64,000 nt of DNA from Polyangiaceae bacterium (GTDB taxonomy: Bacteria; Myxococcota_A; Polyangia; Polyangiales; Polyangiaceae), in the NCBI GenBank assembly GCA_020846005.1, contig JADLEQ010000041.1, forward strand, positions 1 to 64,000. Reading direction: 5' to 3'. Below are positions 2,056 to 17,255 of the stretch, piece by piece. Each line of letters begins with the position of its first letter. Positions within the stretch are counted from its first letter, which is position 1. Below the pieces are notes generated by a model. The model did no database searches. It saw only the letters and a program-made list of their open reading frames with translations, and was not told the DNA's origin. The position numbers were made by a program, and so were the translations under genes.

Positions 2056-3486
2056 TCAGCGACCGCGCCGCGCCGCCTGCTTCTTCGCCGCGGGCTGAGG
2101 CGCCCGACGCTTCGCTGCCGGCGCGGGCTTCGCTGCCGGCGCGGGCTTCGCTGCCGGCGCGGGCTTCGCTGCCGGCGCGGGCTTCCCGGCCGGCGCGGGC
2201 TTCCCGGCCGGCGCGGGCTTCCCGGCCGGCGCCGCCTTCGTCGCCGCAGCGCGCTGCACCGCCCGAGCGGGCTTCTCCGCCGGGACAGGCTTCGACGCCG
2301 CCCTGGGCCGCGCGACGACCGCGCGTCGCCCCGGCAGCAGATCGTCCGCCATCTGCGCGGCGCGCCGAGTCTGCTCCCAAGAAAAGTCCGCCCGACCGAA
2401 GTGCCCGTACGCCGCGGTGGGCCGGTAGATCGGGCGCAGCAGGTCCAGCTCCTCGATCAACGCCTTCGGCCGCATGTCGAAGTGCTCGAGGACGTACTGC
2501 TGGAGCACGTCTTCGTCGACCTTCCCGGTGCCGAACGTCTGGACGTAGACCCCCACGGGCCGTGCGACGCCGATGGCGTAGGCGATCTGCACCTCGCAGC
2601 GGCTCGCGAGCCCAGCCGCGACGATGTTCTTCGCGACGAAGCGAGCGTAGTAGCAGGCCGAGCGATCGACCTTCGACGGATCCTTGCCGCTGAACGCGCC
2701 GCCGCCGTGGCGCCCCATGCCGCCGTAGGTGTCGACGATGATCTTGCGCCCCGTGAGCCCGGCGTCGCCGTAGGGGCCGCCGATCACGAAGCGCCCCGTC
2801 GGGTTGACGAAGTACTTCGTCTTCGCGTCGACTAGGTGCTTCGGCAAGGTGGAGGCGAAGACCAGCTCGTGCATCGCCTCCGTGATCTTCTTGTGGCTCA
2901 CGCTCGGCGCGTGCTGGGTCGAGAGCACGACCGCGTCGATCCGCGCGGGCTTGCCGTCCACGTACTCGACGGTGACCTGGCTCTTCGAGTCCGGGCGGAG
3001 CCACTCGGCGTGGCCCTTCTTCCGCACCTCGGCGAGCTGCCGCACCAGCGCGTGCGAGTACATGATCGGCGCCGGCATCAGCTCGGGCGTCTCGTCGCAC
3101 GCGTAGCCGAACATGAGGCCCTGATCGCCGGCGCCCTGCTCCTTGTGCAAGCCAGCGCCCTCGCTCACGCCCTGGGAGATGTCGGGCGACTGCGGCTCGA
3201 TGGCCGTCAGGACGCCGCACGTCTGGTAGTCGAAGCCCTTCTCCGAGGAGTCGTAGCCGATGTCGTGGATCACGCCGCGCGCGAGCGCGCCGAAGTCGAT
3301 CCACGCCTTGGTGGTGATCTCGCCCGCGATGACCACGAAGCCCGTCTTGCACAGCGTCTCGCACGCGACGCGGCTGTGCGGATCGGACGCCAACGCCGCG
3401 TCGAGGACGGCGTCGGAGATCTGATCGCACATCTTGTCGGGATGCCCCTCGCTGACGGACTCGGACGTGAAGAGGTGACGGCTCAT
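2056..3486 (-). CDS. metK: S-adenosylmethionine synthetase with Lys/Ala/Pro repeat tail
   Basis: Makes S-adenosylmethionine from methionine and ATP. The start ATG at 3486 is preceded by GGAG, and the protein then opens with the canonical [18 protein letters not shown]. All core motifs are present: [42 protein letters not shown] and [18 protein letters not shown]. The catalytic core ends near residue 390 ([16 protein letters not shown]). It is followed by about 80 residues of basic low-complexity sequence with seven [12 protein letters not shown] hexapeptides, so the protein has 476 residues instead of the usual 380-400. Such tails resemble histone H1-like DNA-binding extensions, but a role here is inference. 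The ORF stands alone between a lipoprotein gene and a CheA-like kinase gene. A divergent paralogue lies at 9671-10849. Confidence 0.95.
2112..2240. repeat. 18-bp tandem repeat encoding the MetK tail
   Basis: About seven consecutive 18-bp units in two sub-types: ttcgctgccggcgcgggc (four copies) and ttcccggccggcgcgggc (three copies). On the minus strand they encode KPAPAA and KPAPAG. The near-identity of the units at DNA level indicates recent expansion by slippage or unequal exchange. Confidence 0.9.
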
Positions 3487-8038: not shown

Positions 8039-8110
8039 GCCGATTTAGCTCAGTGGTAGAGCAGCGGTTTCGTAAACCGCAGGTCTGGGGTTCAAATCCC
8101 CAAATCGGCT
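8039..8110 (+). tRNA. tRNA-Thr (anticodon CGT)
   Basis: A full cloverleaf of 72 nt. The acceptor stem GCCGATT pairs with AATCGGC; the D arm is GCTC-AGTGGTAGA-GAGC-like. The anticodon stem GCGGT/ACCGC holds loop TTCGTAA with anticodon CGT, reading ACG. The T arm is TGGGG-TTCAAAT-CCCCA. The discriminator base is T and CCA is not encoded. Phage-derived debris begins directly after the 3' end, so the gene may have served as an integration site, although no second copy of its 3' end was found in the window. Confidence 0.95.
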
Positions 8111-8128
8111 CGGTGATTTCTGCGGGAT

Positions 8129-8996: not shown

Positions 8997-9388
8997 ACCA
9001 CCCAAACCTGTTCGTCGGTAGTGATCTGACCCGGCCGGAGCTGGCGGAGCTCATCGCCAAGTGCCTGGGTCTGAAAGTGAACCACTACCCGGGTGACCGG
9101 GTACCGCGCTCAGTGTTGTCGGGGTTGCCCCCTTTGGCGCGCGGCGTCGCGCCTGGGGCGCTGTGTCTCTACGACCCCGCCATCGTCGTCGATGGCGAAG
9201 AGATGCGCGACTTCTACCCAGACACCCCGCTCGCCGCCACTGGCTACGAGATCCACTGCCGTGTCGCAGGAGAGCGCGAGGAGCAGGAGGCGCTGGTGCT
9301 CGGGTTCTTCGAGAAGCTGAAGGAGCTCGGACTGCCGCTCCTCGTCCTCGATGAAGGTGATCACGTTCTAGGAGAGTACGACCCATGA
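8993..9388 (+). CDS. Hypothetical protein in phage remnant
   Basis: 131 residues, not recognised. The ATG overlaps the preceding stop (ATGA) and its own stop overlaps the next start (CATGATG), so it sits in a compact polycistronic arrangement as in phage genomes. The protein is acidic towards the C terminus, with a predicted helix (EEQEALVLGFFEKLKELG) and a final strand LPLLVLDEGDHVLGEY, and has no signal peptide or membrane segment. Codon use and third-position GC look normal and no stop interrupts it, so it may still be functional even though both neighbours are broken. It could be a phage accessory protein or cargo; the sequence does not decide. Confidence 0.5.
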   Translation: MNHPNLFVGSDLTRPELAELIAKCLGLKVNHYPGDRVPRSVLSGLPPLARGVAPGALCLYDPAIVVDGEEMRDFYPDTPLAATGYEIHCRVAGEREEQEALVLGFFEKLKELGLPLLVLDEGDHVLGEYDP

Positions 9389-9665
9389 TGAGACGAGACG
9401 CTGCCCCGCTGCTGTTCTGCGAGGCTCGCATCGCCGCACGCGGCGCCGTCGCGCCCGCGGGGAAGCGGAGCTTCGCGGTGGTGGCGTCGACGGAGAGGGT
9501 CGACTCCCACGGGACGCGGCTCCGCCAGAACGGGCGGCTCGACCGCTAGCAGGCGAACCCCGTCGTGCTCTGGGCGCACGACTCGCACGAGCTCCCCATC
9601 GGGCTGGCCTCGGACGTGCGCGTCGAGGATGGCAAGCTCCTCGCGACGGTCGAGCTCGCGCCTCC
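9385..9665 (+). pseudogene. Phage prohead protease-like remnant with in-frame stop
   Basis: ATG at 9385 or 9388 follows AGGAGAG, a good ribosome site, and the frame reads RSFAVVASTERVDSHGTRL then NGRLDR before a TAG at 9547-9549. The same frame continues after the stop with QANPVVLWAHDSHELPIGLA and a strand KLLATVEL. The order of a start of the type S-T-E-x-x-D-S-x-G-T, a His-containing WAHDSxExPIG and a following beta strand resembles HK97-type prohead (capsid maturation) proteases. It breaks off near 9665 where it meets the convergent metK-like gene. A stop within the conserved domain plus truncation indicates a dead gene. Confidence 0.55.
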
Positions 9666-9670
9666 CCCAC

Positions 9671-10849
9671 TCACGCCCGGGACGTCGGTCGCTCGCGCCA
9701 GGTCGCGGCCCCGGGCGACCAGCGCTCCCAGGGGAGCGTCGGGTCGCTCCATGGCCCCCAGGCGACCAGCGGCCGAAATCGCACCGCCGCGAGGCCCAGA
9801 TCTCGGTGCGTGCCCGCGAGCGTCAGATCGTAGCCGGAGAGCCAGCGGCGGGCGAGGCGTGGCTCGAGCGGGCGTCCGTCCGCCTCGAGGGTGACGCGCG
9901 CCGGGGTGTCTCCGCCCGGCACGTAGCCCAAGCGCACGAGCGCCCTCGAGCAGAGGCCGGAGGCGACCAGGTGCTTCGCGAGCTGCCGGGCGCGGAGCGC
10001 GCCGCAGCGATCCACCTTGTGCGGATCCTTGCCGCACAGCGCGCCGCCGCCGATGGGGACCGCGGGGCCGTAGAAGTCGACGACGAGCTTCTTGCCGGAG
10101 AGCCCGTTGTCGCCGCTCGGTCCGCCCACGGCGAACGCGCCCGCGCCGTTGATCCGCAGGGTGTCGGGCCCGAGGTCGGCGCCGCCGAGCGACGGGAACG
10201 CGCGCGTCGCGCGCTCGAGCCAGGCGTCAGCCGCGAGGCGCACCAGGCGCACGACCTCGACGTCGTCGGCGGCCTCGGCGTGGTGCGCCGAGACGGACAC
10301 GGCGCGGAGCTCCGGCGCCGCAGTCGTGCCCGCGAGTACGACGAGTACCTTCCCGTCCGGGCCCAGCGAGCCCGGGCGCTCGCGGCGCACCCGGTCGAGC
10401 TCCTCGGCGAGCGCGCGCGCCAGGAAGTGCTCGACGGGGAGGAAGTTGGTGCGCTCATCTCCGCAGGCGAAGCCGACCACCACCGACTGGTCGTCCGAGA
10501 CGCCGCGGATCTCTCGCTCTCCTTCGGCGAGCTGGTCGAGGCACACCTCGGACATGATCCGCAGCTCGCCCGGCGCCGGTCTCCAGGCCCCGTAGCCCAC
10601 CTCGGCGTAGACTCCCCGCGCGAGGGCCGCCACGTCGAGGTCGACGGCGCCGATCCCCGCGACGCGCCCGTCGACGAACACCACGTCGCGATGCACGGCC
10701 ACCTCGACGCCCACGAGGGCGTCGGGGTCGCGCGCACAGGCGGCGTCCACCAGGGCGTCGGCGATCGCGTCTGCCACGCGGTCGGGGTGCCCGGGCAGCA
10801 CGTACTCCGCGAAGCGAACGTCCTCGGCGGGCTCGGCATCAGCGGTCAT
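9671..10849 (-). CDS. Divergent MetK-like SAM synthetase paralogue
   Basis: 392 residues of methionine adenosyltransferase fold, clearly distinct from the housekeeping copy at 2056-3486. ATG 10849 has GAGGAG 8 nt upstream. Landmarks: PGHPDR in place of GHPDK (Lys to Arg), DDQSVVVGFACGDE in place of [16 protein letters not shown] for DAKSQV, GGPSGDNGLSGKK for GGPxGDxGLTGRK, and GGGALCGKDPHKVDR for [15 protein letters not shown]. The Asp, Lys and His residues that bind metal, phosphates and ATP are mostly kept, so an enzyme with altered substrate or kinetics is likelier than a dead protein. It is the last gene of a four-gene operon and overlaps the preceding stop by 11 nt. A role in making SAM or an analogue for that system is inference. 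Confidence 0.8.
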   Translation of the reverse strand: MTADAEPAEDVRFAEYVLPGHPDRVADAIADALVDAACARDPDALVGVEVAVHRDVVFVDGRVAGIGAVDLDVAALARGVYAEVGYGAWRPAPGELRIMSEVCLDQLAEGEREIRGVSDDQSVVVGFACGDERTNFLPVEHFLARALAEELDRVRRERPGSLGPDGKVLVVLAGTTAAPELRAVSVSAHHAEAADDVEVVRLVRLAADAWLERATRAFPSLGGADLGPDTLRINGAGAFAVGGPSGDNGLSGKKLVVDFYGPAVPIGGGALCGKDPHKVDRCGALRARQLAKHLVASGLCSRALVRLGYVPGGDTPARVTLEADGRPLEPRLARRWLSGYDLTLAGTHRDLGLAAVRFRPLVAWGPWSDPTLPWERWSPGAATWRERPTSRA

Positions 10850-12233
10850 GGGCGACTCCTCGCGGGGGGAGGGGGACAATCGTCCGGGCCACGCCGCGGA
10901 GGACTTCGCTGCTGCCGCCCGGCGTGAGCGCCACGTCGATCACCGCGCGACGCTTCCACAGCCACGCGTGGTGCGCGGGCGGGACGTGCCCCACCCAGCC
11001 GTCGGTGAGCCAGAGCGCGCGGCCGACCCGGTTGCGGACCATGTGCTCGGTCACGCACGCGATGTCGGTGCCGCCGGTGGTGCGGACGCGCCCGCGCCTC
11101 ACGCTGCTCGCGTCGAGATCCACGACGCGCTCGCTGAACGCGTGGACCGCGCACCGACCACGCGCCACATGCGGTCGCACCGCAGCCAGCAGGTCCGCGC
11201 GATACGGGTCGGTGCTGCCACTCACGTCCAGGTAGACGTGGACCACGGCGGGCTCGGGCAGGGGCGCGCGCTGCGGCAGCTCGACGCGGAACGACAGCGG
11301 CGTCTCGCCGAGGAGGCCGCGGACGAGCGCCCGGCGGTCGCGGAGCTGTGGAGCGGAGGTCTCCGCGATGCGGTCGGCGAGCCCCAACCGTGTGCGGAGC
11401 GCCGCGCCCGCTCCGCCGAGGGCCAGCGTGCGGAACATGCGCCGGAGCAGGACGACGGCGGCCGGGACGCGCACACGCTCGCCGACCAGGGCGTCGCGGA
11501 GCTCGCTCCCCACGCCGCGGCCGCGGCTCGGATCGGCGGGCGTCGGCCACCGCTCGACGACCGAGCGGAGGGCGTCGAGCAGCGCCGGGGCTCGCGCGGC
11601 CTCCGCCGCGCGGCACTCGAGGCCCGCTTCGGGCCCGTGGTCGCCCACGAGGGTGTAGCCGCCGGGCTGGCCCGGGCAGGCGCCGCCGCCGATCGCGCGC
11701 TCGACGGCTCGGAAGAGCTCGGCGTACCCTACGCCGCTCTCGCCGTAGAGCGCGAGGACGAGCTCGCGGACCGGGTGGGCGAGGGCGGCGGGCGGCTCGG
11801 GCGTGGACGGCCACCCGGGCGGCGGCCGCAGGAAGCACGCGGGCTCCGCGTCCGCTGCGTTCAGCGCCTCGAAGAAGCCCCGGTACGCCTCCGCCGGGAA
11901 CATGTGGCACAGCACCGCGTTGATGACGGCGTCGAACGCGAGGTTCTGCGCCTCCGTCATCCGGGGGAAGAGCCGCGTATGGCCCAGCAGGACGTGGTGA
12001 ACCTCGTGGAGGACGAGCATCGCGAGGTGCTCGTCGGTGCGGCAGTACCGCTCGAGGAACGCCGGGTTCAGCAACAGCAGCGGCGCCGCTCGGCACTCGA
12101 CGGCAGCCGAGTCGACGGAGTCGTCCAGGGCGATGTCGAGCAGGCGGAGGAGGCCGTCGAGCGCGTAGTGGGCCGCGGGGAAGACGCCGAGGATGCGGCG
12201 CCGAAGCGCCGCCGGCGCTGGGCGCCGAGTCAT
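10839..12233 (-). CDS. DUF2201-type putative metallopeptidase with VWA-like domain
   Basis: 464 residues. The N-terminal half has a zinc-protease motif HEVHH at 76-80 within VLHEVHHVLLGH, in the region matching the DUF2201 N-terminal putative metallopeptidase domain. The C-terminal third is VWA-like, with a MIDAS-like DVSGSTDPY at about residue 330 followed by the later GGTDIACV loop. The ATG overlaps the preceding gene's stop (ATGA), so it is translationally coupled. Families of this type usually sit beside MoxR AAA+ ATPases, as here, and the pair is thought to act as a chaperone- or protease-like complex on unknown targets. There is no signal peptide, so it is cytoplasmic. Unusual here is the downstream metK paralogue. 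Confidence 0.8.
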   Translation of the reverse strand: MTRRPAPAALRRRILGVFPAAHYALDGLLRLLDIALDDSVDSAAVECRAAPLLLLNPAFLERYCRTDEHLAMLVLHEVHHVLLGHTRLFPRMTEAQNLAFDAVINAVLCHMFPAEAYRGFFEALNAADAEPACFLRPPPGWPSTPEPPAALAHPVRELVLALYGESGVGYAELFRAVERAIGGGACPGQPGGYTLVGDHGPEAGLECRAAEAARAPALLDALRSVVERWPTPADPSRGRGVGSELRDALVGERVRVPAAVVLLRRMFRTLALGGAGAALRTRLGLADRIAETSAPQLRDRRALVRGLLGETPLSFRVELPQRAPLPEPAVVHVYLDVSGSTDPYRADLLAAVRPHVARGRCAVHAFSERVVDLDASSVRRGRVRTTGGTDIACVTEHMVRNRVGRALWLTDGWVGHVPPAHHAWLWKRRAVIDVALTPGGSSEVLRGVARTIVPLPPRGVAHDR

Positions 12234-12697
12234 CGGTCGCCTCCGCGAGCGAACCTGGGGTCGCGGCTGACGAGGCGCCGCCCGAGCGTCTCGAGATCGA
12301 GCATCGGCGTCTTACGCGCGACCCACACCACGTCCGACGCCTTGGAGAGCAGGACCAGCGCGAGCGCGAGGTCGGTCAGGAGCTCGGGCCCCTCCTCGGC
12401 CGATCCGTCCTCCGCGCGAGAGACGACCGCGCACCCGGCGAGCCCCCGTCGCTCGACCTCTCGATCGATCCGCCCCCGCAGCGCCTCGACGGGGTCGCCC
12501 GCGCACGCCTCACCAAGGCGCTCCAGGAGCCACGCCGCCAGCTCGGGCGCCTCGCGGCACCGCCGCGCCACCGCGCCCAGGTCGGCGACCACCGGCCGTG
12601 GTCCGCTGCCATCCGCCGCAGGGTGGATCTCGAGCGGCCGCACGTTCGCGTAATGGCGCGCCGGCGCGCTCAAGTTCCTGGCGAGGTTGAACGTCAC
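12230..12697 (-). CDS. Small hypothetical protein of the MoxR/VWA/MetK-like operon
   Basis: 155 residues, family not recognised. It starts with GTG overlapping the MoxR stop (GTGA) and ends overlapping the next start (ATGA), so all three are coupled. The N terminus (MTFNLARNLSAPARHYANVRPLEIHP) looks like an extended beta strand region. The middle is predicted helical (VARRCREAPELAAWLLERLGE), and the C terminus has LLTDLALALVLLSKASDVVWV and ends basic. There are no cysteine clusters, signal peptide or membrane helix. Its fixed position between ATPase and metallopeptidase suggests an adaptor between them; this is inference. Confidence 0.7.
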   Translation of the reverse strand: MTFNLARNLSAPARHYANVRPLEIHPAADGSGPRPVVADLGAVARRCREAPELAAWLLERLGEACAGDPVEALRGRIDREVERRGLAGCAVVSRAEDGSAEEGPELLTDLALALVLLSKASDVVWVARKTPMLDLETLGRRLVSRDPRFARGGDR

Positions 12698-14175
12698 CGT
12701 CCCACCTCCTCCTGCCAGCCCAACAGACGGACGAGCTCCCGAAACCAGAGCACCAGCGTGGCAGGAGCGAAGTCGCCCTCGTCACGCTCGAAGGCGACCA
12801 GGAGCACGTTGTGCAGGGTCCGGTCGCCGATGCTCTCCGGCTGCAACCCAGCGAGCGCGTGCGTCACCTCGCGCCAGAGCTCGAAACGGCGCGAGCCGGG
12901 GACCATGCCGTGGGTGCGCGCGCGCGGGTCCTCGACGCGCGCCTGGATCTCCGCGATCACCTCGAACGCCGCCGCGGTCAGGTCACCGCGGGTGGAGACG
13001 ATCGGGTAGAGAGCCGCAGCGAACCCGACCCGCTGCGCCGGCGGGAGCTCGGCGTAGGCGTCGAGCACCAGCGTGGAGAGCTGGATCGCGCCGAGCCCCA
13101 CCCGCAGCCCGAGCGCCACCCGCCGGACCGGGTCGGGCTCCGAGAGCACGAGGCGCGCAGGATCCGTGGGTGGTAGGCGCGCCAGGGCCCACGCCTGCCG
13201 GTGCGCCGCGAGCAGCCTCGCGCCGTCGACGCGCCGCCCCGTCGCGGGGTGGGGCATTCCGCAGCGGAGGGCGAGGTAGGCGGACTCGCCGGGGTCGCAG
13301 CGCGCGTCCGCGCTGGCGCGAGCTGCGTGAACCCCGACGACCGCGTCGTGCAGGTAGCGCGCGCGGCGCGGGCTGAGCGTCCTGCGCAGCTTCTGGAGGA
13401 GCGGGAGCAGCGCCGCGACGTAGTCGCAGGCCGCGGCGCAGAGCTCGCGGCGGACGGCGGGCAGGCAGCGACGGACCGTGTCGACCTCGACGCGGAGCCG
13501 CCCCTCGGCGCCGGCGCCGAGGTCGTCGGAGGCGCCGCCGATGACGGCGCGGCGCTCGGCGTCGCTCATCGTCTGGAAGTCCGGCGCCTCGATCACGAAC
13601 GGGAACCGGTCGGCCAGCGCCGGGTCGAGCGGCTCCGATCCTCGATACACGTCCGTCGCCTCGTCTTCGTCCTCGTCGGCGCCGGGGAGCACCGGCGGGT
13701 TCATCGCCGCCCAGCGGTAGCGCAGGCTCGGCAGCTCCAGCCCCTGGACCACGCGCTCGTGGAGGATGGGGAAGAGCTTGTTCTGCAGATCGACGCGACA
13801 GCGGGAGATCTCGTCGAACAGGACCGACTCGGCGTCCCAGATGGAGCTGGCGGTCGGGACGTAGACGAGGCGCGCGCGATCCGCGGACGGGATCGGGTAA
13901 CCGACGAGATCGTCGAAGTTCAGCAGCGACGCGTTGAAGTGGCGATGACGGAGGCCCATCGCTCGCGCGAGCCGGTTCAGGAGCAGCGACTTCGCGGTGC
14001 CGTGCGGGCCGATGAGGAGCACCGGCTCCTCCGTCGCCAGCGCGGCGAGGATCACGGGCTCGAGCGCGCGCCAGCCGAAGACGCCCAGCCCGGCCAGCGC
14101 TCCGCCGCGGACGCCGGGCGTCTCCGCCTCGCCATCTCCCGAGCTACGTTCTACCGCTTCTGCAAGTCGCGCCAT
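12694..14175 (-). CDS. MoxR-family AAA+ ATPase
   Basis: 493 residues, first gene of the operon. ATG 14175 is preceded by GAGGAGAGG. The AAA+ core lies in the first about 260 residues: Walker A GPHGTAKS at 56-63, the MoxR-typical FNASLLNFDDLVGYP, Walker B with D121-E122 (SVLFDEIS), and sensor 1 AAMNPP, followed by an acidic insertion with repeated Glu-Asp. The C-terminal half is helical and ends in a conserved-looking FAPATLVLWFRELVRLLGW. MoxR ATPases act as metal-insertion or complex-assembly chaperones together with VWA proteins, and the VWA-like partner is two genes downstream. The upstream 330 nt hold no gene and contain a perfect inverted repeat at 14407-14422, perhaps an operator. Confidence 0.85.
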   Translation of the reverse strand: MARLAEAVERSSGDGEAETPGVRGGALAGLGVFGWRALEPVILAALATEEPVLLIGPHGTAKSLLLNRLARAMGLRHRHFNASLLNFDDLVGYPIPSADRARLVYVPTASSIWDAESVLFDEISRCRVDLQNKLFPILHERVVQGLELPSLRYRWAAMNPPVLPGADEDEDEATDVYRGSEPLDPALADRFPFVIEAPDFQTMSDAERRAVIGGASDDLGAGAEGRLRVEVDTVRRCLPAVRRELCAAACDYVAALLPLLQKLRRTLSPRRARYLHDAVVGVHAARASADARCDPGESAYLALRCGMPHPATGRRVDGARLLAAHRQAWALARLPPTDPARLVLSEPDPVRRVALGLRVGLGAIQLSTLVLDAYAELPPAQRVGFAAALYPIVSTRGDLTAAAFEVIAEIQARVEDPRARTHGMVPGSRRFELWREVTHALAGLQPESIGDRTLHNVLLVAFERDEGDFAPATLVLWFRELVRLLGWQEEVGR

Positions 14176-14505: not shown

Positions 14506-15132
14506 TCACACCCGCCGGACGCGGTAGGCGCCGCTCCCGGCGACGAGCGGCGACTCGATCGGCTCGAGCGCGCAGTCCGCGCGCTCCCCGATCGCAGCGC
14601 GCACGGCCTCGGTGACGAGCACCTCGCCCGCCCGCGCGGTGTCCTCCCCGAGCTTGCTGGCGGCGTTCACCTCGCGCCCCCAGACGTCGTCGTCGCCCAC
14701 CCGGAGGATCCGGCCGTAGCCGATCCCGGCACAGAGGAGCACCTTGCGCTCCGGCGCCCGCTCCTGGTTGATGCGCTCGCACTCGGCCTGCATCGCCAGC
14801 GCGCAATCGACCGCCCGATCGGGCCGGCGAAACAGGACGAGGAAGCTGTCCGCGTCGCTCTTGATGAGGAGGCCATCGTGGGCGGCGACGACGGGCAGCA
14901 GCGACCGGCGCTGCTGGTGGATGACCTCCAGGAAGTGCAGGATCCCGAACTCCGCGACGTTCCGGGAGAACCCGGCGAGATCGGTGAACAGGATCGCCCA
15001 GTCCTCGCCGAACAGATCCCAGATCCGGCGATCGATCGAGGCCACGTCCGCGCCCGGCCTCGCGCGCTCGGCGACCAGGCTCCAGAGGCGCGCGCTCGAA
15101 CCCTTCAGCTCGTCGTCCCGGTGGGGATCCAC
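14506..15132 (-). CDS. Class III adenylate/guanylate cyclase-like protein
   Basis: 208 residues when started at GTG 15132, chosen because TAGAGT ends 7 nt before it (leaderless pattern); GTG 15141 would overlap that box. A short N-terminal segment precedes a single catalytic domain: ILFTDLAGFSRN with the first metal Asp, IKSDADSFLVLF where the second metal Asp follows the conserved Lys, then GIGYGRILRVGDDDVWGREVN with the Asn of the transition-state pair, and AASKLGEDTARAGEVLVT. Both metal ligands are kept, so it may make a cyclic nucleotide. A closely similar group is common in delta-proteobacteria as stand-alone small proteins. There is no membrane segment or sensor domain, and no effector is next to it. 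Confidence 0.75.
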   Translation of the reverse strand: MDPHRDDELKGSSARLWSLVAERARPGADVASIDRRIWDLFGEDWAILFTDLAGFSRNVAEFGILHFLEVIHQQRRSLLPVVAAHDGLLIKSDADSFLVLFRRPDRAVDCALAMQAECERINQERAPERKVLLCAGIGYGRILRVGDDDVWGREVNAASKLGEDTARAGEVLVTEAVRAAIGERADCALEPIESPLVAGSGAYRVRRV

Positions 15133-15203
15133 GGGCGTCACTCTACCAGCGCGCCGCGAGGAGCGGGAGCGGGCGGGCGGGCCGCCGAGCGCCGGCGGCT
15201 GCG

Positions 15204-17255
15204 TCAGTGCCAGCAGAGCTGGTCGGCGGAGGTCGGGTACCCGGAGCTCACCGTGAACAGCCACTGGTCGGAGCCGGTGGTCACGCTGTCCTGCGGGTTC
15301 GTGTCGACGCAGTAGTCGAGCGCGCCGTCCTTGTCCGTCTTGGGCGCGTTGGAGTGGACCGGCGTCACGACGCAGTCCGTCATCGAGCCACCGGTGACGA
15401 CCGCCTCGACGACCGCCGCCGCCCAGAAGTCACCGGCCGCCGTCTGCCCGCTCACCAGGAGTTGCGGGTAGTCCTGCTGGGACGCCGGATCGTAGCCGAG
15501 TGAGAAGCGGCGCTCGCCGTTGCAGTAGATGTTGACGTGCCCCTTCACCGGAGGCGACCCGATGGTGTAGGCGTGGAGACCCACCGCGAAGCGGTCGCCG
15601 TCGTTCGGGTTGTCGAGGTTGATGTTCTCGGCTCCGCAGAACTCGCCCGTGCTCGAGTTCGGGTCCGTCACCGACGGGTCGCAGCTGATGTTGTCGCGAT
15701 CCAGGCGAGGGTTCTCGCAGAGCGTGCCCGAGTAGCGCCGCGAGCCCCAGCCGTGGCAGGTGTCGCCCGGCGAGTCCGCGTAGCCCCACTGCATGGTCGA
15801 GGCTCCGGTCGCGCCGGCGCAGTTCTGGTAGTAGCAGTCGTCGCCCGCCGGCCCCGTCGCGCAGGTGTCGAACCAGCCGTGGCCGATCGACGAGGAGCTG
15901 CAGGTGGCCCCCTGCAGGCGCGCGAGGTGGAGATCGAGGTCGTTGGGCATCGGCGACCAGCAGGCCTCCGCGCGGATTCCGGGCGCGCGCACCTGGACCT
16001 TCACGGTGCAGGCGTACGGCTTGCCGTCGAGCTCGAACTCGCCGCGGACGAGGTAGTCCCCGGAGAGCGCGAAGGCCGGGTACACCTTGCTCCGCGCGTC
16101 GTCCGCGGGGACGACGATCCCGCGCTGGTTGGCGCCGGCCCCGAGGTCGTCCTGCTCGCCGCCGACCGGCGCCGCGGAGGCGGCGGTCGCCGAACCGTAC
16201 ACGGCGAAGCTCGGGTGCGGCAGCACGTTGTCGCAGTCGCCGCCAGTGACCGTCCACTTCCACTGCGTCGCCCCCGCGGCCGCGCCGCCCTGCACCCACG
16301 CGGCGCCATCGATCTCCGGGAGGTTCGCCGGATCGGGGTACGGCGCGACGGTCATCGCCTGCGTCGGGCACTCGACCTCGGGCACGAAGCACGCGCAGTC
16401 GATGTCGGAATTCTTCTCGGCGCCGTCGCAGTCCAGATCGCCCTGCACGCAGAGATCGACCGCGCGAGGCGCCTGCGCACCCCGGCACTCGCCGCTCCAC
16501 ACCGGCGGCTGGCCGAGCCCGCCGGAGATGCAGCGGCGGTTGCCGGCCGCGTACGTCTGGCACCAGCCGACCGGCTCCTTCGTCACCGGGTCGACCTGGC
16601 TCGCCGGCACGAGCCAGCAGTCGTTGCCCGTCGACCCCGCGAACTGCCCCGCGCCGCAGGTGCACCCCTCGTCGACCAGCCCGTCGCAGTCGTCGTCGAA
16701 GCCGTTGCCGTCGGCGCCGTTCGGGATCGCGGCGTTCACGTCTGCGCTGCCGTCGCACTCGTCCGTGGTCGCCGCCGCACACGCGCGCACGATCGGCCCA
16801 GGCGCCCGGACGTGCCCGGCACCGCAGCCGGCGTCCGCGTCGCTCCCCGTGTCCGGCGCGGCGTCCGAACCTGCCTCCGCGTCCGAACCTGCCTCGGCGT
16901 CCGACCCTGCCTCCGCGTCGACGCCCGCGTCGGCGCCGGCCGCGCCGGACTGCCCCGACGCGCCGCTGGCGCCGGCCTGGCCCGATGCGCCGGAGGCGCC
17001 GCTCTGACCCGCCACGCCGCCGCCCCCGACGCCGGCGCTCCCCGCTCCCCCGGACGCCCCGCCCACCCCCGCGCCGCCCGACTGCCCGCCGGTGCCGCTG
17101 GTGGCGCCACCGCCGATCACCCCGGAGTCCGTCTCGTCGTCGTTCGTCCGGACGACGCAGGCGGACACGAGGACGCAGCCCGCCGCCGCGAGGCCCCACC
17201 GGCTCGCCGCCCTCCACCCCAGCCTGGCCTGCCCAACGGTGACATCGCTCGCCAT
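15204..17255 (-). CDS. Large secreted lipoprotein with MopE-like repeats
   Basis: 683 residues. ATG 17255 follows GAGG about 8 nt upstream. The signal region ends in VLVSAC (lipobox VSAC), then about 110 residues of Gly/Ser/Ala repeats including GASGASGQ and three copies of EAGSDA. The folded part begins with MopE-like DDDCDGLVDEGCTCGAG, a second Asp-rich segment (DLDCDGAEKNSDIDC) and a cysteine-rich middle. It then has a domain with DLDLHLARL and later LDRDNISCDPSV and ENINLDNPNDGDRFAVGLHAY, a pattern frequent in myxobacterial secreted proteins. Many paired cysteines imply disulphides outside the cytoplasm. The function is unknown. It is 72 nt downstream of the cyclase start and divergent from nothing; parE lies upstream on the same strand. 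Confidence 0.75.
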   Translation of the reverse strand: MASDVTVGQARLGWRAASRWGLAAAGCVLVSACVVRTNDDETDSGVIGGGATSGTGGQSGGAGVGGASGGAGSAGVGGGGVAGQSGASGASGQAGASGASGQSGAAGADAGVDAEAGSDAEAGSDAEAGSDAAPDTGSDADAGCGAGHVRAPGPIVRACAAATTDECDGSADVNAAIPNGADGNGFDDDCDGLVDEGCTCGAGQFAGSTGNDCWLVPASQVDPVTKEPVGWCQTYAAGNRRCISGGLGQPPVWSGECRGAQAPRAVDLCVQGDLDCDGAEKNSDIDCACFVPEVECPTQAMTVAPYPDPANLPEIDGAAWVQGGAAAGATQWKWTVTGGDCDNVLPHPSFAVYGSATAASAAPVGGEQDDLGAGANQRGIVVPADDARSKVYPAFALSGDYLVRGEFELDGKPYACTVKVQVRAPGIRAEACWSPMPNDLDLHLARLQGATCSSSSIGHGWFDTCATGPAGDDCYYQNCAGATGASTMQWGYADSPGDTCHGWGSRRYSGTLCENPRLDRDNISCDPSVTDPNSSTGEFCGAENINLDNPNDGDRFAVGLHAYTIGSPPVKGHVNIYCNGERRFSLGYDPASQQDYPQLLVSGQTAAGDFWAAAVVEAVVTGGSMTDCVVTPVHSNAPKTDKDGALDYCVDTNPQDSVTTGSDQWLFTVSSGYPTSADQLCWH
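16859..16916. repeat. 18-bp tandem repeat encoding EAGSDA
   Basis: Three copies of a unit close to gcctccgcgtccgaacct, encoding EAGSDA on the minus strand in the lipoprotein spacer. It is near-identical at DNA level. Confidence 0.8.

Follow-up and report, generated by a model that had tools for sequence, protein, structure and literature searches.

MoxR-type AAA+ ATPases are encoded beside VWA proteins in several chaperone pairs, among them NorQ/NorD, RavA-ViaA and CbbQ-CbbO. Such pairs are widespread and, to our knowledge, their targets are mostly not known. In the stretch of DNA analysed here (the window, 64,000 nucleotides of a Polyangiaceae contig), a pair of this kind shares a cassette with a small protein and a divergent methionine adenosyltransferase paralogue, MetK2. 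Is MetK2 a true partner of the MoxR/VWA pair and, if so, what might the partnership be for? Our literature search found no paper joining MoxR, VWA and a SAM synthetase, the one match being a RavA-ViaA paper.

The cassette and its proteins

All four genes are intact and lie on the minus strand in the order MoxR, small protein, DUF2201/VWA protein and MetK2 (Table 1). Successive genes overlap by 4 nt (GTGA), 4 nt (ATGA) and 11 nt, and these coordinates confirm the initial annotation, which had described four overlapping, coupled genes. The dN/dS ratio against the closest relative was about 0.14-0.31, with dS near saturation, and indicates purifying selection. The initial annotation had also described intact Walker motifs in MoxR, and HEVHH and MIDAS-like DVSGS motifs in the third protein. 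Both observations were borne out, as Walker A and B were fully or almost fully conserved in 19 family members, and HExxH and DVSGS were invariant across 20 members of the VWA-protein family. A housekeeping metK elsewhere in the window had been missed.

Table 1. Positions of the cassette, its motifs, neighbouring features and related loci. Positions without a locus prefix refer to the window.
Feature	Position	Strand	Details
MoxR-type AAA+ ATPase	12694..14175	(-)	493 aa; Walker A GPHGTAKS, Walker B LFDEISR
Small protein	12230..12697	(-)	155 aa, GTG start; N-terminal tail RNLSAPAR
DUF2201-type zincin-VWA protein	10839..12233	(-)	464 aa; N-terminal zincin-like domain and C-terminal VWA
HEVHH motif of DUF2201/VWA protein	11994..12008	(-)	
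MIDAS DVSGS motif of DUF2201/VWA protein	11214..11228	(-)	
MetK2, divergent methionine adenosyltransferase paralogue	9671..10849	(-)	392 aa, ATG at 10849
Arg62 of MetK2	10664..10666	(-)	at position of E. coli MetK Glu55 (methionine amino-group ligand)
Housekeeping metK	2056-3486	(-)	ordinary type, ~6 kb from cassette
tRNA-Thr (CGT)	8039-8111		
Interrupted frame	9386-9894		
Adenylate/guanylate cyclase-domain protein	14506-15264	(-)	
L145 sister cassette	L145:4636-11374		MoxR, 373-aa protein, DUF2201, helicase-Amidoligase_2 fusion, GGACT
Canonical-residue second-MetK cassettes, Verrucomicrobiota	L164:2464-8000; L165:3759-8207		
HEC-01A-like ATPase	L049:7536-8924		10 nt downstream of MetK2
Fic protein	L067:5133-6179		55 nt downstream of MetK2
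Homoserine O-succinyltransferase and N-formylglutamate amidohydrolase (G788)	L163:9027-10710		

The MoxR protein carries an AAA_5/MoxR domain (Pfam AAA_5, E=3e-10) and scored 26.0 bits with bpMoxR, against a cut-off of 27; no beta-propeller partner protein was seen in the cassette. The VWA protein fell just below the Pfam cut-off for DUF2201_N (22.7 against 23.2 bits, E=9e-5). In its AlphaFold2 model (pLDDT 74, pTM 0.49), residues 326-459 matched the VWA fold with Z of about 12, and the best Foldseek match of the protein was NorD of NorQD (E=5.5e-6). The model of the small protein had a pLDDT of 83, low over residues 1-30 and high in the core. Its flexible N-terminal tail is conserved (family motif NMSxPPR), as is a C-terminal part, and neither Foldseek nor VIA-align found a PDB match for its fold. 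The methionine of the NMS motif was considered as an adenosyl acceptor, an idea weakened by the sequences NLS in the window and NYG in its closest relative, L048. All three S-AdoMet_synt domains of MetK2 exceeded their Pfam cut-offs; the MetK equivalog model TIGR01034 (NCBIfam) gave 186.5 bits, short of its cut-off of 309.4. MetK2 is 33% identical to the housekeeping MetK of the same genome.

Like NorQ/NorD, RavA-ViaA and CbbQ-CbbO, the cassette has a MoxR AAA+ protein beside a VWA protein with a MIDAS motif; it differs from them in that its VWA protein carries an additional zincin-like domain and that the set includes a MetK and, at nearly all loci, a small protein. NorQD is reported to remodel its target for metal insertion (PMC13036017). 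A jumbo-phage pair (PMC7824862) resembles the cassette in combining MoxR with a vWA protein fused to an N-terminal metallopeptidase domain but, unlike the cassette, has been proposed to serve virion assembly; MetK2 was absent from the stretch examined in two viral-contig relatives. The ternary conflict systems of Kaur et al. 2020 (PMC7159879) likewise join further components to a MoxR-vWA core, but the third components that define them were not found in the cassette, and the main text of that paper does not contain the terms AdoMet, SAM synth or DUF2201.

Linkage of MetK to one MoxR lineage

A MetK2 scan of genome contigs yielded 29 loci with 39-78% identity over the best segment. The hosts were Planctomycetota, Verrucomicrobiota, Kiritimatiellota, Lentisphaerota, Myxococcota and Actinomycetota, together with MAGs named Proteobacteria. 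The locus set comprised 47 entries, 40 of them distinct after removal of 7 duplicates. We placed gene order by tblastn and profile scans, and counted it at loci with more than 4.2 kb upstream (32 entries, 28 distinct). MoxR followed by VWA-MetK2, in fixed order on one strand, was found at every one of the 28 distinct loci (32/32 entries). The small protein lay between MoxR and VWA in nearly all of them, its profile missing, among the 32 entries, only the divergent L141 and L199 and the broken L070. Co-occurrence in other genomes had been put forward in the initial annotation as a check, and the four genes indeed keep a strict order across phyla. No conserved fifth gene was seen.

Searches that did not start from MetK were also carried out. 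With the VWA profile, 294 Planctomycetota genomes gave five matches above 400 bits, with MetK2 adjoining in 5/5 (two of these genomes, G296 and G291, were already in the MetK2-seeded set), and five further genomes near 100 bits, with MetK2 in 0/5. The same profile in 289 Verrucomicrobiota genomes gave two full-length strong matches with MetK2 (G302, G788), a match split across contig ends (G310), one weak match without MetK, and two intermediate matches (G750, G771) with a different MetK upstream. When 284 genomes of the window's phylum were searched with the MoxR profile, nine loci including the window's own were recovered with the full cassette (MetK2 at least 285 bits, MoxR at least 395 bits), the cassettes of L196, L181 and L201 ran off the contig, and MetK2 was found at none of the MoxR matches below 230 bits. 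Thus, the VWA- and MoxR-seeded searches agree in that high-scoring homologues carry a MetK unless the contig ends, and low-scoring ones do not.

In G750 and G771, the second type of MetK (K4) is encoded directly upstream of MoxR-small-VWA, and a housekeeping metK is also present. K4 has all the canonical residues and groups with canonical MetK in the tree. A MoxR search seeded from a K4 cassette in one Verrucomicrobiota class found six genomes, 6/6 with MetK2 or K4. In the MoxR tree, the MoxR proteins linked to either type of MetK formed one clade (96/97), and those of MetK-less cassettes formed another (98/94). A MetK partner is thus a constant of this MoxR clade, and MetK was recruited twice, or exchanged, within one MoxR lineage. 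Its recurrence there in two types argues for a real functional link between MoxR and MetK. The MetK-less sister MoxR-X-DUF2201 cassettes share the core order, in that X separates MoxR from DUF2201, but X is 373-379 aa long and they lack MetK; in L145 and L146 this protein has about 370 aa. The small protein gave a weak match to the larger X with hhalign (E=0.033).

The closest relative of the window's cassette (L048) is assigned to another phylum, and G309 carries two full copies. Close relatives of MetK2 were not found in genomes of the same class, where the listed matches were 32-40% identical, which is the housekeeping MetK range; a single VWA query against 290 same-class genomes returned no strong relative, and no strong homologue was found on any plasmid record. 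The patchy distribution, the relative in another phylum and the two copies in G309 point to horizontal transfer, with misbinning of individual MAG contigs possible. Apart from two defence-like neighbours, the flanks are ordinary and differ from genome to genome. In the window, a tRNA-Thr gene lies near the cassette and near an interrupted frame; we searched for a repeat of the tRNA end, as for a tRNA-flanked insertion, and did not find one. The adjoining 'phage debris' of the initial annotation came down to this interrupted, weakly phage-like frame, which has one PHROG match (E=0.002).

Substitutions in the active site of MetK2

MetK2 formed one clade with 100/100 support, apart from housekeeping and phage-like (K3) MetK, and so lies outside the housekeeping clade in the kind of tree that had been suggested as a check. 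A separate housekeeping-type metK match was present in 27 of the 29 MetK2 genomes; MetK2 was the only MetK found in G293 and G312, likely because of assembly gaps. Two other origins were rejected. MetK2 is not a local duplicate of the neighbouring housekeeping metK, as it belongs to a distinct cross-phylum clade, and it is not a phage-type SAM synthetase, as K3 proteins, which make up a separate clade, retain Glu55 and Gln98. K3 itself was observed at L107, L108, L116, L118 and L120, with no MoxR nearby; the genomes concerned have the cassette as well.

Residues were surveyed in 40 distinct MetK2 sequences, 37 of which cover the N-terminus. E. coli Glu55, Gln98, Asp238 and Arg244 were mapped by motif to Glu70, Gln113, Asp258 and Arg264 of human MAT, where the first three bind the methionine main chain and Arg264 contacts the triphosphate at the gamma site (PMC7271947, PMC6850014). 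At the Glu55 position, MetK2 has Arg in 35/37 sequences, Cys in 2/37 and Glu in 0/37. The Gln98 gate motif (QSPDI) is lost in 40/40; its place is taken by a new gate segment, in which an Arg precedes DDQ in the sequences inspected. The methionine ligands Glu55 and Gln98 of the MetK equivalog thus occur nowhere in the MetK2 clade. Arg244 is replaced by Lys in 40/40. Asp238, Lys245, Lys265 and Asp271 are kept in 40/40; His14, Asp16, Glu42, Asp163 and Lys165 are also invariant where covered, and Asp118 and Lys269 have one exception each. MetK2 therefore shares with housekeeping MetK the three-domain family and the ATP/triphosphate residues, but differs in Glu55 to Arg, the missing gate motif and Arg244 to Lys. 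Judged by residue conservation, MetK2 keeps its ATP/triphosphate site and appears to have rebuilt its methionine contacts. Of the changes listed in the initial annotation, GKK (Arg244 to Lys) proved invariant, and PGHPDR and the Cys of GGGALCGKD vary across the family; the most telling ones, the Arg in place of Glu55 and the missing QSPDI/Gln98 motif, were not among them.

A possible role for the cassette

Since the cassette in distant phyla always pairs MoxR/VWA with an altered MetK, it suggests that an ATP-driven pathway not yet described makes or controls SAM, or a product like it. The reading we prefer, at a probability of roughly one half, is a horizontally transferred NorQ/NorD-like MoxR/VWA machine dedicated to a specialised adenosyltransferase derived from MetK. 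The MoxR AAA+ ring and its VWA partner with the zincin-like domain would form a NorQ/NorD-like remodelling pair which, together with the small protein as adaptor or substrate, would act on the dedicated MetK2; both the complex and the direction of action are what we infer. MetK2 would retain the ATP-to-adenosyl and triphosphate chemistry. Because two of its three side-chain ligands for the methionine main chain are lost, the substrate of MetK2 is probably not free methionine, or is methionine only in a state set by the machine. In the small protein, the conserved flexible tail might serve for docking, as a cleavage site or as an acceptor. MetK is fixed as the partner by its strict linkage in two distinct arrangements, which offers a concrete, assayable target for a MoxR-VWA pair.

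More tentatively, MetK2 may adenosylate a substrate other than methionine, such as a peptide or protein side chain (for example the NMSxPPR tail) or an anionic small molecule, gated by the MoxR/VWA/zincin machine, with a new type of adenosyl product or of protein modification as the outcome. Should MetK2 turn out not to produce SAM, it would represent a new specificity among adenosyltransferases with the MAT fold. Against an altered substrate stand the fully canonical MetK of the G750/G771 cassettes and the Asp238 kept in MetK2. Loss of Gln98 alone says little, because the human Gln113Ala enzyme retains most activity (PMC6850014).

As the MetK of G750 and G771 is canonical, the ancestral product may have been plain SAM, and MetK2 may merely bind methionine differently. 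MetK2 could then be a working SAM synthetase which, through new methionine contacts, increases the local SAM supply of the module or of the cell. Its intact ATP/triphosphate residues and Asp238, the canonical MetK of the sister cassettes, and a homoserine O-succinyltransferase gene about 67 nt after MetK2 in G788 are consistent with this. We nevertheless find it doubtful, since a housekeeping metK is already present in nearly all hosts, Glu55 has given way to an oppositely charged residue in almost all family members, and a SAM-consuming enzyme was recognised in the cassette at none of the examined loci. The earlier suggestion that the operon draws on SAM of its own, or on an analogue, fits both the retained ATP/triphosphate site and the altered pocket for methionine. 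In G788, the homoserine O-succinyltransferase is followed on the same strand by an N-formylglutamate amidohydrolase; neither was found near other examined MetK2 loci.

MetK2 could also produce a signal or a toxic nucleoside as part of an anti-phage or other conflict system, but this is less likely. Patchy spread across phyla with the closest relative in another phylum would suit such a system, MoxR-vWA pairs occur in conflict systems (PMC7159879), and a HEC-01A-like ATPase (L049) and a Fic protein (L067) are neighbours of MetK2. But PADLOC-DB (2023 library) gave only a marginal mad8 match to MoxR (E=0.0024) among the cassette proteins, no effector was recognised in the cassette, and the flanks vary as described above. 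The defence role raised in the initial annotation thus comes down to this match and two defence-like neighbours, with no strong homologue on plasmids. MetK2 might instead lack catalysis and act as a sensor or scaffold, regulating the MoxR/VWA machine through a fold that binds ATP or SAM. This would agree with the loss of two methionine ligands and the gate motif but is improbable, as nearly all acidic and basic residues of the ATP/triphosphate site are invariant in 37-40 sequences and would be needless in a pseudoenzyme. The window also encodes a protein with an adenylate/guanylate cyclase domain on the same strand as MoxR and a short way upstream of it.
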